46,482 nucleotides of DNA from an uncultured Mucispirillum sp. (GTDB lineage Bacteria; Chrysiogenota; Deferribacteres; Deferribacterales; Mucispirillaceae), in contig CALVEY010000017.1 in NCBI GenBank assembly GCA_944326705.1, forward strand, positions 1 through 46,482. Reading direction: 5' to 3'. The position numbers were made by a program, and so were the translations under genes. Below the pieces are notes generated by a model. That model ran no database searches. It saw only the letters and a list, made by a program, of their open reading frames with translations, and was not told the origin of the DNA. Of this stretch, positions 8,888-17,317 are shown in pieces; within the stretch, counting starts at the first letter, position 1; the number at the start of each line of letters is the position of its first letter.

Positions 8888-9982
8888 CTAAAAAAAAATA
8901 TCTATTAATACTTTTATTATTACAGCCGCCAGCAGTATTTTAAAAAATAATAAGAAATATTCCTTCTTTTTTAAAGTGGAAATATGCTTTCTGATTTCTG
9001 GCAAATCTTTAAAAGATAGTGCTTTTTTATAATAATCAAATGCTTCATCATATTTACCAAGTTTTTCATTACAAAGCCCTGTAAGTGTATAAAGCTCCGC
9101 TTTATCATCATATTCTGTTGCGTTATTTAAGCATTCTAAAGCCTTACCGAATTCTCTTTTATTAATATAATATACTCCAAAAACATAATTTAAATCTGCA
9201 TCATCAGGATATAATTTAACACCTTCTTCAAGATATTTTAACTGTTTCTCATTATCGTCTAAGCTATCAGCACACAAAGCAGCATAATAATAAAGCCAGT
9301 TATCATTCTTGCCTAAAGCAAGTGATTTTTCCAAGTAAACCATTGCTTTATTATACTGTTCTAATTCAAATAAGCATAAGCCAGCTTCAGAATATACCCA
9401 GCTGTCATTTCTGCCAAGTAACATTACTTTTTCTATATTTTCATAGGCTTTTCCACACTCATTCTGCAGCCTGTATAAATATGATAATTCACTTTCAAAA
9501 TTTATTAATTCCTCATTATTTTTTATTAATGGATGGCATTTATTTAAATATTCACATGCTTTACTAAATTTTTTTTCATCAAGTTTTTTGCGGAAAAGTT
9601 TAATATAAGTACAGTATAATAAAGAAGATGTATCATCAAAATCTGGATAAATTTCTAAAGCTTTTATAAGATATTTTTCGGCTTCTTTATATTTTTGCAG
9701 ATAATAGCAGGAAATGCCTGCATGATAATTCCATAAGGCACTATTCTCCCCTTCATCTTTTACCTGCATTAAAGCTGATAAACCTTTTTTGTATTCTTCA
9801 TTATTATTATATGCTGCTGCAAGTCTGCACACCATATCAAATGTTAACTGCTCTTTTGGAAGGTTTGTAATAATATCTATAATTTCTTTATGTTTAGAGG
9901 CTTTTTGCAGAGTTTCTAACTGTTCTTTTAAACTAGTTATATTTTGATTTTCAAGTTTCTCTTCATTTTTAATAATTAGCAT
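8888..9982 (-). CDS. TPR-repeat protein with C-terminal membrane anchor
   Basis: Protein of 364 aa built mostly of tetratricopeptide repeats (about residues 30-330). Consensus-like units such as NSALWNYHAGISCYYLQKYK and AELYTLTGLCNEKLGKYDEA can be read. Repeated W-[VL]-Y segments followed by YNKAM indicate related neighbouring repeats. The last 20 residues (YFLLFFKILLAAVIIKVLID) form one transmembrane helix, and there is no signal peptide, so the repeats probably face the cytoplasm on a tail anchor. A scaffold role is likely; the partner is unknown. The ATG at 9982 with an upstream GGGTGGGG is preferred to the GTG at 9994. Confidence 0.75.
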   Translation of the reverse strand: MLIIKNEEKLENQNITSLKEQLETLQKASKHKEIIDIITNLPKEQLTFDMVCRLAAAYNNNEEYKKGLSALMQVKDEGENSALWNYHAGISCYYLQKYKEAEKYLIKALEIYPDFDDTSSLLYCTYIKLFRKKLDEKKFSKACEYLNKCHPLIKNNEELINFESELSYLYRLQNECGKAYENIEKVMLLGRNDSWVYSEAGLCLFELEQYNKAMVYLEKSLALGKNDNWLYYYAALCADSLDDNEKQLKYLEEGVKLYPDDADLNYVFGVYYINKREFGKALECLNNATEYDDKAELYTLTGLCNEKLGKYDEAFDYYKKALSFKDLPEIRKHISTLKKKEYFLLFFKILLAAVIIKVLIDIFF

Positions 9983-10231
9983 GATTTTCCCCACCCATAA
10001 AGAAATTTTATTAAAATATCACTTGAAAAAAATTTAATAATTTTTTTTCTTATATTTGCTTAACCTATTGTATTTCATACTCTTTTCTTATATCTACATA
10101 AAAGATACTAGTCAAGAGCCAAAATAAATTTATAAACATTAAGAGTCCAACAAGAACAAAAATATAACTAATAAAACAACGCAAAAATATTTGAAAATTC
10201 TAAGATTAAATTTGAAAAAAATACCTGATTT

Positions 10232-10262
10232 GGGTAGTGTGAGTATATTCACAGCAATACCC
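10232..10262. promoter_or_regulatory. Crp-type palindrome inside a longer hairpin
   Basis: TGTGA-GTATAT-TCACA at 10238-10253 is a perfect match to the classical Crp half-sites at the classical spacing. It is enclosed by a second pair of arms, GGGTA (10232-10236) and TACCC (10258-10262). It lies 240 bases upstream of the structured RNA block and 256 bases upstream of the TPR start. No gene start is close, so its target is unclear. Confidence 0.5.
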
Positions 10263-10480
10263 CTTCCATTAATAAATAATGAAATAAATTATTAATATAT
10301 GATGTTTTATAAATACTATTAAATTATCTGCAGTGATTATATAATATATTTCTAAAAAATGCCAGCAAAAAAATTTCAGATACTTACATAGTAATAGAAA
10401 TTTATGGCGAATTGGGCTTATATAATAACATATGTGATTGCAATGGAATTTTTTTGATAATAAAAGGAAAGATTACATAA

Positions 10481-10631
10481 GAAATGAGGGGGTGAGCAGT
10501 ACATGCGCGTATACTCTCACACCCCAGCATTTCATATGCGAATCAAAGCCCCGACCCTGAGTTGTTTCTCTTTTGCGGAGTGCTTTGAAATCCCTAAGGA
10601 CTCACCGGAGCGAATGGCTTATCCTAAGGGA
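10481..10631. ncRNA. candidate structured RNA, family not recognised
   Basis: This 151-base block is clearly richer in G+C than its AT-rich surroundings and folds into three successive stems. First is a long hairpin, 10481-10533: GAAATG/CATTTC, then GGGG/CCCC, TGAG/CTCA and AGTA/TACT. Second is TCAAAGC (10543-10549) with GCTTTGA (10582-10588), enclosing a partly paired interior. Third is TCCCTAAGGA (10591-10600) with TCCTAAGGGA (10622-10631), one mismatch. A TATAAT at 10421-10426 could serve a plus-strand transcript. The block could equally be the 3' untranslated region of flgE on the minus strand, since flgE stops at 10654. I looked for tmRNA, SRP RNA, RNase P, 6S RNA and common riboswitch cores and found none of their conserved motifs. 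No long open reading frame runs through it. Confidence 0.6.
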
Positions 10632-10653
10632 AAATTTTAATCAACTATCTATC

Positions 10654-13600
10654 TTAACGTTTCATGTTAAGTAACTCTTGAATCATCTCATCGGAGGTAG
10701 AGATAACTTTAGAGTTTGATTGGTATGCCCTTTGAGTTGTAATCATATTTACAAGCTCTGTTGATAAATCAACATTTGAGTTTTCAAGCATAGATGCTGC
10801 GATTTCGCCTCTATCCCCAGTCATTGGCTCGCCTATTGTAGCCTGACCAGAAGCACCTGTTGCTTGGAACATTGTATCACCTACTTTTTCTAAACCTCTT
10901 TCATTTACGAAAGTTGCAAGTGCTATTTGAGCTAATACCCTTGTTTGACCATTTGAGTATGTACCTACAAGTTCACCAGCTGGGTTAAACATAGTTTGAG
11001 TTAAGTCACCAACAGTGTAACCATCTGTAGAAGCTCTTGTAATACCACCACCATTTGCAGCTATTGATAAGCCGTCATTTTCACCTGCTGTTCCTAAGTT
11101 TAATGCAATTGGGTCAATTGTATTTGTTCCATTTGCAGCAGCAAACCTAAGTGTAGGGTTAGATATTACTTTTGATGGAGTAGTAAACCTGTCATACATA
11201 TGGCTTAAAGTGCCATCTGCATTAAACCTTAAAATAAGTTCGTTTTGGCTTGCTCCATTAATAGCAACATCGTTTAATGGGTCATCAGTTTCTATTTCCA
11301 TTCTCCATTCATTTAATTCTTCATTCCATAAGCTGAATGTAAAGTTAATATTGTGTTTGTTACCCTGCTCATCATAGATTTCCATTGTTCTGTAAGCTAT
11401 ACCGCCTGTTGCAGCAGTAGTTGTTCCCTGCATAGAGTTGTTGAAAATCATATTTGATGTTTCAGAGCCGCCTGTTGCAGTAATAGTTAAGAAATCAATA
11501 TTATTTCTACCACCTTTTTCACCAGTTACTTTGATAACACCATTTTCTATTGTAACATTATCAAATGTATTGTGACCGCCATTTAAGTCTACAAATTTTT
11601 CAATAGCAAGCATATAATCTGCTACTGTGCTTGTAGCACCTATTGAGAAGTAACCATTGTTAGTAATTTGTTCATCATTAATGCTGCCTTTAATTTCCAG
11701 TGTAGATTGGTTTTCTACAAAGTTCATATAGTTACCGTTTTCATCAAACAGGTTCATCATTAATGTAGTATCATCTGCAGTAGTTAAGAACTGTTTAGAT
11801 GTAAATGATTTGCCTATACCTAATGTACCAGTAACATTTTCTTCAAACATATTTTCATTAAAGATTTCGCCTTTATTAGCTTTTGTAATATCAATACCAG
11901 TAATGTTATCTACTATGTTTGATTCACCATCTATTGTATATCCTGCAGTTGTAATAGTCTGACCTACTAAACCATTAGATAACATTTCTTTTAAGAATGG
12001 AGTTTTTGCAGTAGTTTCTATTCTTGAGAAAGAAATATCATTGCCGCCTGCTGTTACTGTAAAAGTATTATCACCTGCATTGTAAGCAACTGTAACACCT
12101 GCAAAATCACCGCCTGCTGCTCGAATTTGTGCTTGTAATTGTTGAGCAAGTGAATTTGCATCAGTAAATACTGCTTGAGCTGGAGCTGTAGGACCACCTG
12201 CTGTATTGTATTCTAATATAATAGGGTTTGCCATACCTGTTAATCTGAAAACAAGTGTTTCACCATTTTGCATGTGTAAGTCATTTGTAGACATATCAAC
12301 CAGTGTGTTTTCTTCTGTATCTTCAAAGTTATAAACAATTCTGCCTTTACCAGCAATTGGCTCTACATCAACAGTTGATACAACATCATTTAATTGTTTA
12401 GGTGTAACAATATCATTAGCACCATAAGTATTTAATGAGTTATCAAAAACCATTTTTAAGTATGTATTAGGTACAGCTGTGCTGCCTATAGCCTGATGCA
12501 GCGTACTTTCACCAAAAGATATTGCATGGCTTGCACCTGTTACAGAAAAACTTAACTGGTTACCATCAAGACCAAAAGATACCCTTGTAGTAACTGGAGT
12601 TCCTGCAACATTTCCTGCAGCAGTTAATTGTTCATTTAATGTATCTGTTATTAATCTGCCTAATTCCTGAATAGTGTGGAATTGGTTTCTAACTGTTGGG
12701 TTTACTGTTTCAGTATAAGTAAATGGTCCAATATTTAATGTAGCTGCAGCTGTTCCTGTATTTGGGTCATAGATTGTAATATCATCAAAAGATATACCTT
12801 CACCTTCATTTAAACCAAAGTCGTTATCAAGGAACTCTGCACTAAATCCGTTTGGAACAACACCACCATTTATTGAGTTACTGATTCTATCAGTTAACTG
12901 CTCAATAGATGTAAAATCATCTTTATATGTAACTTCTTTTTGGTAAGTTAATTCAGAAGAATATTCTGTTTTACCAGCTTTAAAAGTAGTAGCAAGTGGT
13001 GAAAGCAGTGCAGCTAATTGAGAAGAACCACTGATACCGTTAATTTCAAATTCATGACCATAGTTAGCTTCAATCGCAAATTTACCATCTTTAAAAGTCA
13101 TTGTTGCAATTGGAGTACCTGCTGTATTTGTAGCTGTATCAACATGCTCTTTTGTAGCTTGAGCAAATATATTGTTTACTTCCTGCAGGAAGTCTTCAAT
13201 TGTAGTATATTTACCATCATTTAAAGAGTTACCGCCAAGAGAGCTGTAGTTTAATGAATAAGATGAACCGTTAATTCTAAAAGTAACGTTACCATTAAGC
13301 TCACTGATACCTAATGCTGTGCCGTTTTTATCTGATAACTGGCTCATTGGAGTATAAAGTGATGGGTTAGCTGAAATTCTAACTTTTTCACCATCTGCTA
13401 AGTCCATAGCAACACCATTTGCACTAAGCATAGTGTTTACATCCTGTTTAGCAGAAGCTTGAGTTAAAAGTTTACCATAAGTAACTGTTGAAGCTGTAGC
13501 ATTAGTATCTAATGCACCAGACATATTAATTTCAGTAGATTCTTTTGGTTTCATAACTTGATAGTTAGTACCTAAAACGATATCACCAACACCTACTTGT

Positions 13601-14049
13601 TTATTCATTTCACCAGTATCTGGGTCAGCCATCCAGCCTTGAACTCTGTAACCTGATGGAGTAGTTAAAGTGTTTGTATTATCAAAGTTAAAGTCACCAG
13701 CACGAGTATAGTAGTTTTGGTTTACACCTTCACCACGAACCACAAAGAAACCAGTTCCTTGAATAGCTAAGTCTGTTGTACTTTGAGTAGATTTTAATAC
13801 ACCAGATGTAAAAATATTATCAACTGCTGCAAGATAAACACCGTTACCAACTTGACGTGGGTTAATACCACCTCTTGAGTCTGTTGGTGTTTTACCACCA
13901 ATTAATGTTTGGCTCATTAAGTCCTGAAATACAGCACGGCCCATTTTAAAACCAATAGTGTTTACGTTTGCAATATTGTTACCAAGAACATCCATAGATT
14001 TCTGGTTTACATCTAATCCACTTACTGCATTATATAATGACCTTAACAT
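10654..14049 (-). CDS. flgE: flagellar hook protein, very long form
   Basis: Structural subunit of the flagellar hook, secreted by the flagellar type III apparatus. The N-terminus (MLRSLYNAVSGLDVNQKSMD, then NNIANVNTIGFK) is the conserved flagellar rod/hook motif. The C-terminus (ANSNVDLSTELVNMITTQRAYQ) is the conserved D0 coiled-coil helix. The protein is 1131 aa against about 400 in E. coli. The extra mass lies between about residues 180 and 900, as Thr/Asn/Gly-rich beta segments likely to be surface-exposed hook domains. It is the third gene of fliK-flgD-flgE. GGAGG lies 7 bases before the ATG. No conventional terminator follows; the structured block at 10481-10631 comes next. Confidence 0.93.
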   Translation of the reverse strand: MLRSLYNAVSGLDVNQKSMDVLGNNIANVNTIGFKMGRAVFQDLMSQTLIGGKTPTDSRGGINPRQVGNGVYLAAVDNIFTSGVLKSTQSTTDLAIQGTGFFVVRGEGVNQNYYTRAGDFNFDNTNTLTTPSGYRVQGWMADPDTGEMNKQVGVGDIVLGTNYQVMKPKESTEINMSGALDTNATASTVTYGKLLTQASAKQDVNTMLSANGVAMDLADGEKVRISANPSLYTPMSQLSDKNGTALGISELNGNVTFRINGSSYSLNYSSLGGNSLNDGKYTTIEDFLQEVNNIFAQATKEHVDTATNTAGTPIATMTFKDGKFAIEANYGHEFEINGISGSSQLAALLSPLATTFKAGKTEYSSELTYQKEVTYKDDFTSIEQLTDRISNSINGGVVPNGFSAEFLDNDFGLNEGEGISFDDITIYDPNTGTAAATLNIGPFTYTETVNPTVRNQFHTIQELGRLITDTLNEQLTAAGNVAGTPVTTRVSFGLDGNQLSFSVTGASHAISFGESTLHQAIGSTAVPNTYLKMVFDNSLNTYGANDIVTPKQLNDVVSTVDVEPIAGKGRIVYNFEDTEENTLVDMSTNDLHMQNGETLVFRLTGMANPIILEYNTAGGPTAPAQAVFTDANSLAQQLQAQIRAAGGDFAGVTVAYNAGDNTFTVTAGGNDISFSRIETTAKTPFLKEMLSNGLVGQTITTAGYTIDGESNIVDNITGIDITKANKGEIFNENMFEENVTGTLGIGKSFTSKQFLTTADDTTLMMNLFDENGNYMNFVENQSTLEIKGSINDEQITNNGYFSIGATSTVADYMLAIEKFVDLNGGHNTFDNVTIENGVIKVTGEKGGRNNIDFLTITATGGSETSNMIFNNSMQGTTTAATGGIAYRTMEIYDEQGNKHNINFTFSLWNEELNEWRMEIETDDPLNDVAINGASQNELILRFNADGTLSHMYDRFTTPSKVISNPTLRFAAANGTNTIDPIALNLGTAGENDGLSIAANGGGITRASTDGYTVGDLTQTMFNPAGELVGTYSNGQTRVLAQIALATFVNERGLEKVGDTMFQATGASGQATIGEPMTGDRGEIAASMLENSNVDLSTELVNMITTQRAYQSNSKVISTSDEMIQELLNMKR

Positions 14050-14950: not shown

Positions 14951-17275
14951 TTAGGCATATATGCCTGTTGCTTTTTTATTAGCAACTTCTGTGCCAACTT
15001 CTAAATCTTCTTCCTGACTTCTAAAACTTTTGCCTTTTTGTGTCTGTTTAGAAGTTCTTCTGCCCTGCTCATCATTATTCTGCTGTCTGTTCATTGCATC
15101 ATTATAAGCAAACTCCATATTATCAACTACTATGCCTTTTTCTGATAGCTGGTTTTTAAGTAAATCACTTTGAGCCATTATTAATTTATGGCTGCTTTCA
15201 TTATCAGATAAGAATTTGGCAGTTATTTTACCGCCGCTTTCACTTAAATGTATTTCCATTTTACCTAAATTTTCAGGTGTTAATACTACAGTTAATTTAG
15301 ATTCTCCTTTGCTGACAGATGACTGCATAGTGCGAACAAGTCTTTCAATATCTCTTGGCTCTTTCATATTATATGGTGCCTGAGCCTCTTTACTTTGTGC
15401 AGTATCATATTTTGCCTGAGCTTCTGCTGATGATTTTAAGAAATAGTTGAAATTATTTCCTTTATCACTTTGAGATGCAGAAAAATTTTCCCCTGCATTA
15501 CTTTGAGTCATCATCATTTCTTTCTGGTTTAAATTATTTTGTAAATTTTTACCTGTTTCTAATAAATTTACTGTATTTGCTTTTATTTCAGCTTTTGCAT
15601 TACTTTCGCCTCTTAAGCTTTCTGTAACTTCCACATTAGCTGTTTTAAACTCTTTCTGCACATCTTTTACAGATACAGTATCTGTCTGTTTAACTGTGTC
15701 TTTTACAATATCTTTTACACTTTCTTTAACAGTATCTTTTAATGTTTCTTTTGCTGTTTCCTGTGATAGTTTTTCATCAGATTGTTTGCTGTTAATATTT
15801 TCTTCTACTGCTGTATCTGCTAAATCTGCTAATTTCTGCATACTGTTATTATTTGATTTAACTATATCATCACCGCTTTCTGTTAAAACATCAGCTGATA
15901 ATACAGGCTGTTTATTTTCTGCATTATCTTCTAAAACTTGAGCTGTCTGCATTACTGCTTCATCAGAAATTTCTGTATTCATAACTAATGCTTCTTCTGC
16001 AGTAACAGTATTTTCTACTTTATTTTCAGATAAAATATCAGCCTGAGCTAAAATATTTTCCGCTGCAGTTTTCACTGTAGAAATAATATTTTTTGCAAGC
16101 TCTAGTTTTTCATTATTTGATGATAAATCAGCTTCTTTTACAGCCTCATCAATTAAAGCAGAAAGATTGTTTATTATTTCAGCATTATTTAAGCTATCGC
16201 TTTTTAAAGAAGTGATTATTTCTGAATTTTCTATGCTTTCAACAGTTTCTGCACTATCTTTATTATTTAAACTATCGCTTTTTAAAGAAGTAATTATTTC
16301 TGAATTTTCTATGCTTTCAACAGTTTCTGCACTATCTTTTGGCTGGTTTGTAAGCTCTGAAATTTTTTCCTGTATTGCATTATATGCTTCTTCTAATGAG
16401 CTGCTGTCTATTTCTGTGCCTAATATTTTTTCAGATATTTCTTCAAGAGAAATATTTTCCATATTAATATCTTCAGATAATGCTCCAATATATTCTACAA
16501 GCTGACCTAAATCAGACTTATCCATATTTTCAAATGTTGAAATAATATTCTGCAGCTGCATTTTTAAATCATCAGATATATTAAGTTCAGATATTGCTGT
16601 ATCTATATTTTCTATTAACGCATCAACATCTATATTAATATTTTCAAGTGCTGCATCTTCGTCATTTGCTGCTTCTGTAACAGTATTATTTTTTGCAGCT
16701 GTTTGCAGTAATGCTAAAATATCTTTTATAGATATAGTTTCAGCCTGACTGTTTTCTGGCTGTGTATGTGTATTTTGGTTTGATTGTATTTCCTGATTAG
16801 CAGCAATATTTTTATTACTGCCTGTTTCTGCCTGACTATTCTGCATAGCTTTAACATCTCTTTTTTCAAATACATTCTGCTCTTTAATTGTATTTGTATT
16901 TTTCATATTTCTGCTTGCAGGACTGTCATCTCTATATACTTTTCTTTCTACTGCTTCATAATTTTCTTTGTCTTTATTATATCTATTATCATCATTTCTA
17001 TTATAATCATTATCATCTTTACTGTATTTATTTTCAGATACTCTGTCGCTGTATTTTTTTGTATCAGAATAAGATGAGTAAGAATTATTTTCCTGATATG
17101 ATGAGTAACTGTTTTCTTTTCTGCTGTATGGGCTTATAGAATTATCATAAGAATTATCTTTTATAGAATCAAAAATAGACTGAAAAGATTCTCCTGATAT
17201 ATCAGCAGTTTCTGAAAAAGATGGTAATAAAGACTGGGCAGTATTTGCTTTGTTTACAGTGTTGAAATTTATCAT
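14951..17275 (-). CDS. fliK: flagellar hook-length control protein
   Basis: FliK is the secreted ruler that switches export from hook to filament subunits. The conserved Flg_hook domain is at the C-terminus, about residues 650-740 (VSKGESKLTVVLTPENLGKM, EIHLSESGGKITAKF). The long N-terminal part is low-complexity and rich in Ser, Asn, Glu and Lys, as expected for the extended ruler. At 774 aa it is far longer than the roughly 400-residue enterobacterial protein, in step with the very long FlgE here. It contains an exact-style 26-residue tandem duplication. The ATG at 17275 with GGAGG 7 bases upstream replaces an in-frame start 30 bases earlier, which would lie inside the sigma-54 promoter region. 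It is the first gene of the hook operon. Confidence 0.88.
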   Translation of the reverse strand: MINFNTVNKANTAQSLLPSFSETADISGESFQSIFDSIKDNSYDNSISPYSRKENSYSSYQENNSYSSYSDTKKYSDRVSENKYSKDDNDYNRNDDNRYNKDKENYEAVERKVYRDDSPASRNMKNTNTIKEQNVFEKRDVKAMQNSQAETGSNKNIAANQEIQSNQNTHTQPENSQAETISIKDILALLQTAAKNNTVTEAANDEDAALENINIDVDALIENIDTAISELNISDDLKMQLQNIISTFENMDKSDLGQLVEYIGALSEDINMENISLEEISEKILGTEIDSSSLEEAYNAIQEKISELTNQPKDSAETVESIENSEIITSLKSDSLNNKDSAETVESIENSEIITSLKSDSLNNAEIINNLSALIDEAVKEADLSSNNEKLELAKNIISTVKTAAENILAQADILSENKVENTVTAEEALVMNTEISDEAVMQTAQVLEDNAENKQPVLSADVLTESGDDIVKSNNNSMQKLADLADTAVEENINSKQSDEKLSQETAKETLKDTVKESVKDIVKDTVKQTDTVSVKDVQKEFKTANVEVTESLRGESNAKAEIKANTVNLLETGKNLQNNLNQKEMMMTQSNAGENFSASQSDKGNNFNYFLKSSAEAQAKYDTAQSKEAQAPYNMKEPRDIERLVRTMQSSVSKGESKLTVVLTPENLGKMEIHLSESGGKITAKFLSDNESSHKLIMAQSDLLKNQLSEKGIVVDNMEFAYNDAMNRQQNNDEQGRRTSKQTQKGKSFRSQEEDLEVGTEVANKKATGIYA
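16185..16340 (-). repeat. 78-bp tandem duplication inside fliK
   Basis: Two adjacent copies with period 78 bases (16185-16262 and 16263-16340) differ at only a few positions. They encode two copies of a 26-residue unit containing SAETVESIENSEIITSLKSD. The in-frame unit changes ruler length without disrupting the gene and looks recent. Confidence 0.9.
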
Positions 17276-17300
17276 AATCAAACCTCCACGCTGTAAGACA

Positions 17301-17317
17301 AGCAAATATCAAGCCAA
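17301..17317 (-). promoter_or_regulatory. sigma-54 promoter of the fliK-flgD-flgE operon
   Basis: On the minus strand TTGGCTTGATATTTGCT matches the sigma-54 consensus: GG and GC are spaced exactly 12 bases apart, with TTGGC and TTGCT flanks. It lies 26 bases upstream of the fliK ATG, so the predicted 5' leader is only about 15 bases and just includes the GGAGG. Sigma-54 control of hook genes is known in several flagellated bacteria. Confidence 0.75.

Follow-up and report, generated by a model that had tools for sequence, protein, structure and literature searches.

FlmE (CJnc230), a small RNA of Campylobacter jejuni, directly follows flgE and shares its strand wherever it is present (PMC11187230). 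It is cut from the flgE mRNA by RNase III and represses flgM (at its ribosome binding site) and Cj1387c through a conserved anti-Shine-Dalgarno (anti-SD) sequence; at 98/88 nt, it comprises two stem-loops with a 12-nt single strand between them that contains CCUU (PMC11187230). The Escherichia coli RNAs FlgO and FliX are sigma-28-dependent flagellar small RNAs that are carved from the 3' untranslated regions (3'UTRs) of the flgL and fliC mRNAs (PMC10578931, as described in PMC11187230).

For the phylum Deferribacterota, we found no described regulatory RNA. The window analyzed here is a stretch of 46,482 nucleotides from an uncultured Mucispirillum sp. (contig CALVEY010000017.1), and the new RNA family that we describe from it would sit exactly where Campylobacter keeps a flagellar small RNA. 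Likened to FlmE by place and principle, from published descriptions, the Mucispirillum RNA is most likely its functional counterpart. It too would be a noncoding RNA immediately downstream of flgE on the same strand, with an anti-SD in a conserved unpaired region (CUCC in a hairpin loop here and CCUU in the linker of FlmE). The hosts are also alike with respect to Hfq: to our knowledge Campylobacter lacks it, and no Hfq was found by Pfam model in the genome of the window (G000, ~97% complete). In contrast to FlmE, the Mucispirillum RNA is approximately 150 to 160 nt long, has three hairpins over 151 nt, and carries its CUCC inside a hairpin loop; it belongs to another phylum, and the FlmE target flgM is not supported in Mucispirillum. 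FlgO and FliX resemble it as small RNAs from the 3'UTRs of flagellar mRNAs, but as far as PMC11187230 describes them they have no similar position, and E. coli has Hfq and RNase E.

The locus and the predicted fold

The ORF list and Pfam place the element in a gene-free gap between flgE and a TPR gene, at 9995-10653, which agrees with the 659-base interval of the first-pass annotation. flgE is the last gene in a fliK-flgD-flgE run, and fliK and flgD were also identified with Pfam; the named relatives of this flgE belong to Mucispirillum. fliK (14951-17305, minus strand) contains an apparently exact tandem repeat of ~26 residues (KDSAETVESIENSEIITSLKSDSLNN). The features, in the order of transcription of flgE, are as follows.

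10654..14049, minus strand: flgE, flagellar hook protein, 1131 aa (Pfam Flg_bb_rod, FlgE_D2, Flg_bbr_C)
10685-10704, minus strand: possible small hairpin AUCUC-UACCUCCGAU-GAGAU, read from the sequence, without variation
10657..10716, minus strand: final codons of flgE, showing excess constraint at synonymous sites
10591..10631, minus strand: SL1, with an outer stem, a small internal loop, a 3-bp inner stem and a 9-nt loop
10607..10615, minus strand: SL1 loop AUUCGCUCC, whose CUCC is the complement of the Shine-Dalgarno GGAG; proposed seed
10544..10587, minus strand: SL2, stem CAAAGC/GCUUUG with conserved internal AAGAGAAACAACUCA
10530..10543, minus strand: linker AUUCGCAUAUGAAA, whose CAUAUGRAA recurs just 5' of SL3 in other genera
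10481..10533, minus strand: SL3, long G+C-rich terminal hairpin, with loop region UACGCGCAUG at 10502-10511
8888-9994, minus strand: TPR gene (Pfam), on the far side of the 659-base gap from flgE

The interval 10481-10631, initially singled out as a G+C-rich block of three hairpins, has the limits of the element: read on the minus strand, it opens with SL1 and closes with SL3. Its G+C content of ~47% exceeds the 16-31% of the 500 bases to its left, but the contrast is one-sided, since the flgE coding end on its right has 33-47%. The three consecutive stems that had been claimed were predicted on both strands, with the stronger fold on the minus strand: there, 10470-10650 folded at -65.5 kcal/mol (z -5.78, with 0 of 200 shuffles as low), compared with a z score of -3.45 for the plus strand in the same shuffle test. 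SL3, which would correspond to the hairpin credited with more than 20 paired positions, has 18 consensus pairs, with 99.4% of alignment cells paired across the genus Mucispirillum, and a higher count in the single-sequence fold.

An Rfam scan had been named as one analysis that could refute a novel structured RNA, and it returned no match to a routine RNA: nothing in the whole window matched Rfam 15 at gathering thresholds, and nothing within 10300-10750 matched at E values up to 10. The elements of the other genera described below gave just weak matches to unrelated families, far under gathering scores. Conservation, fold and cross-genus homologues agree with the annotation of a structured RNA without an Rfam family; the element would be an RNA family not listed before, of the kind already known as 3'UTR-encoded flagellar RNAs.

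Conservation within and between genera

We searched nine other Mucispirillum genomes in addition to that of the window (G000, 2.39 Mb, 97% complete), in which the island stretch is present once. The element was kept in eight of these and in the window's own genome, at 87-100% identity; the ninth, G004 (57% complete), is without the flgE 3' end, its contig stopping inside flgE. In the nine-genome alignment, identity was high from within flgE through the end of SL3 and then collapsed, and the gene next to the element varied from genome to genome, indicating that the element goes with flgE. A leader of the downstream gene was ruled out, as that gene differs in each genome.

Constraint is also evident inside the coding sequence. 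Among the last 20 conserved degenerate flgE codons, 17 were identical in the nine genomes (gene mean, 6.7 per 20), and the final codon window ties the gene's highest value of synonymous identity. Either the RNA starts inside the flgE coding sequence, or a signal lies there, for example a promoter or a cleavage site. We rejected a candidate sigma-28 promoter inside flgE (TAAAGTTA...CCGATGA, located at the conserved end), as its spacing is ~3 nt short of consensus. The genome has a single exact copy of the sigma-28 consensus, at another place and within or close to other coding sequence, and nothing resembling a sigma-70 promoter was found on the minus strand close to the end of flgE.

Within the genus, the SL1 loop was invariant in nine genomes, the SL2 stem was invariant, and the linker was invariant save for one A to G change. 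The genus alignment is too uniform for a strong test of covariation within Mucispirillum. Three pairs with double changes were counted in MAFFT columns, a number equaled in 146 of 500 column shuffles; the genus pair counts do exceed those of slid pairings. Thus, the proposal that the stems would covary found no signal above column shuffles within the genus, but between genera the differing SL1 stems all pair. It is this comparison between genera, and not covariation within the genus, that provides the firmer structural case.

The family has two other genera, one represented here by G011 and one by G010 and G013. By eye and with a covariance model, we observed the same plan after flgE in all three genomes, namely, SL1, SL2, CAUAUGRAA, and SL3. 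SL1 has the closing pairs [AG]CC/GG[UC] and a 9-nt loop [A/C]UUCGCUCC, and the SL2 stem of Mucispirillum is swapped for other stems in G011 and in G010/G013. The covariance model matched on the correct strand at E values of 9e-6 (L041), 7e-4 (L044), and 9e-4 (L043). However, the hairpins are near-palindromes, and for the genus elements the model gives hits on the opposite strand as well; the E values alone are therefore no proof, and the loop and the position provide independent support. SL1 folds in 12 of 12 family sequences with differing stem sequences, including a compensated G-C to A-U change between G010 and G013. When the loop was fixed and the flanks were shuffled, a stem as stable arose in 0-1 of 1,000 trials for Mucispirillum and in 5-18 of 1,000 for the other genera. 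Together with the results above, this gives us high confidence that the island is a real conserved structured RNA after flgE, a claim of structure and position.

We scanned 46 genomes of the order for the core motif CCNTTCGCTCCGG. It was detected once per genome in 12 of the 15 family genomes, each time after flgE; in the other three (G004, G012, and G014) the 3' side of flgE is unassembled or flgE is partial. Nine matches in one other family all lie within coding sequence and were ruled out as homologues. On present evidence, the element is restricted to one family of Deferribacterota. In one genus, a separate sequence, GGAGCAGATGTTAATG, is present in many closely spaced copies (G010:C15 and C22, G013:C37 and C117, and G014:C52) and is probably a repeated coding motif.

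Proposed role and its alternatives

The element folds on the minus strand, is conserved, keeps its position by flgE, and carries an invariant anti-SD loop. Our main reading, to which we assign a probability of roughly 45%, is that this conserved structured RNA of the flgE 3'UTR is a trans-acting flagellar regulator. The RNA would be transcribed with flgE as the tail of its message and then either cut from it as a small RNA of ~160 nt or act while still attached, with SL3 ending or protecting it. The CUCC of the SL1 loop would pair with the Shine-Dalgarno regions of flagellar mRNAs, which would then be translated less as soon as hook gene expression is under way. Such pairing would be Hfq independent, since the genome yielded no Hfq gene.

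It is possible, but in our view rather unlikely, that the element serves only in cis as a 3' end, with SL3 (together with SL1 and SL2) terminating transcription or blocking exonucleases and thereby setting the level of flgE mRNA. Its place at the end of an operon, beside a gene without conservation, fits such a function, and SL3 is a long, stable, G+C-rich hairpin like those of intrinsic terminators and 3' stabilizing elements; in G010 and G013, seven T in a row come after its counterpart. However, no such run follows SL3 in Mucispirillum or G011, and a terminator scan of the window found no G+C-rich hairpin followed directly by a U-run. A terminator or stabilizer would also have no need of a 9-nt loop and a linker that are both invariant, or of three hairpins maintained across genera, two of them in addition to the terminal one.

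The same unpaired sequences could instead be read by a protein, the SL1 loop and CAUAUGRAA binding a regulator or ribosome-associated protein that either acts on the flgE mRNA or is itself sequestered. Consistent with this, the loop and linker are kept in sequence while the stems are kept in pairing only, and the genome, in which Hfq was not found, encodes CsrA near fliW, flgL, flgK, and flgM. Repeated GGA in hairpin loops is a trait of CsrA-sequestering RNAs, though, and alignment inspection revealed no conserved GGA in any loop; the element is therefore not like a CsrA sponge. With no candidate protein identified, we regard protein binding as improbable.

The strand was assigned from the substitutions themselves. 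Variable pairs read on the minus strand stay paired (C-G/U-G/U-A, G-U/G-C, and A-U/G-U), while the same sites read on the plus strand give A-C mismatches. For SL1, in a register set by hand that overstates compensatory changes, the sense reading gave pairs in 107 of 108 cells, 15 of them G-U and none A-C. The sense fold was better than the antisense fold in 11 of 12 family sequences, with G011 the exception. These data place the RNA on the flgE-sense (minus) strand, because only there do the substitutions keep pairing as G-U. The first-pass annotation had offered two origins, and these data support the one in which the flgE message ends in this element; a plus-strand RNA antisense to the flgE end is very unlikely, for although a TATAAT is present at 10421-10426 and the plus strand folds too, the A-C mismatches and the position of this putative promoter, on the wrong strand in sequence that is neither conserved nor alignable between species, remove it from consideration. 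A plus-strand ORF at 10503-10640 (45 aa) was ruled out by indels of 1-2 bases between species, which exclude a coding role on that strand.

Candidate targets of the SL1 loop

For the proposed trans-acting regulator, we analyzed 97 translation starts drawn from four regions of G000, a non-random set that centered on flagellar loci and was classified manually. In this set, predicted pairing with the SL1 loop averaged -8.7 kcal/mol for 20 flagellar genes versus -6.5 kcal/mol for the 77 others (p 0.0006). Control seeds that kept CUCC were as good in 15 of 256 cases on the mean difference and in 8 of 256 on p (~3-6%). Near the top for loop pairing were fliF (GGAGCGA) and flgI (GGAGCG). The extended complement of flgI is present in Mucispirillum and in G011, whose flgI carries the full GGAGCGAA, but it is absent in G010 and G013, though the loop is conserved there. 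For flgM, the complement is the Shine-Dalgarno itself only, in Mucispirillum and G011, with none in G010 and G013, and flgM is not supported as a target. The evidence for flagellar targets is only suggestive, a lead from predicted pairing and not a demonstration.

If extended further, the trans-acting reading would have hook gene expression release a small RNA that acts without Hfq to reduce the output of early flagellar genes (for example, fliF and flgI), a post-transcriptional hook checkpoint that evolved separately in Deferribacterota and Campylobacterota; we consider this full scheme unlikely. Confirmation of the element itself would suggest that RNAs timing flagellar assembly arise preferentially where the hook gene ends, and the gut commensal Mucispirillum schaedleri would be a tractable test system.

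The linker GCAUAUGAAAUGC, taken as a seed, did not favor flagellar starts (p 0.37). The exact complement GGAGCGAA is not over-represented before ATG, the permuted control GGAGCAGA being several times commoner, and its conserved cases (a 102-aa protein, a ShlB-type transporter, and a YicC-like protein) include none common to the three genera. The 102-aa protein (MSIETIGLRA...) has no Pfam match and is encoded beside a chemotaxis-receptor-like gene, with its site at G000:C11:51806-51818 on the minus strand (L105); in seven Mucispirillum genomes, its Shine-Dalgarno is the full loop complement GGAGCGAA (L105, L218, L253, L225, L215, L233, and L209).
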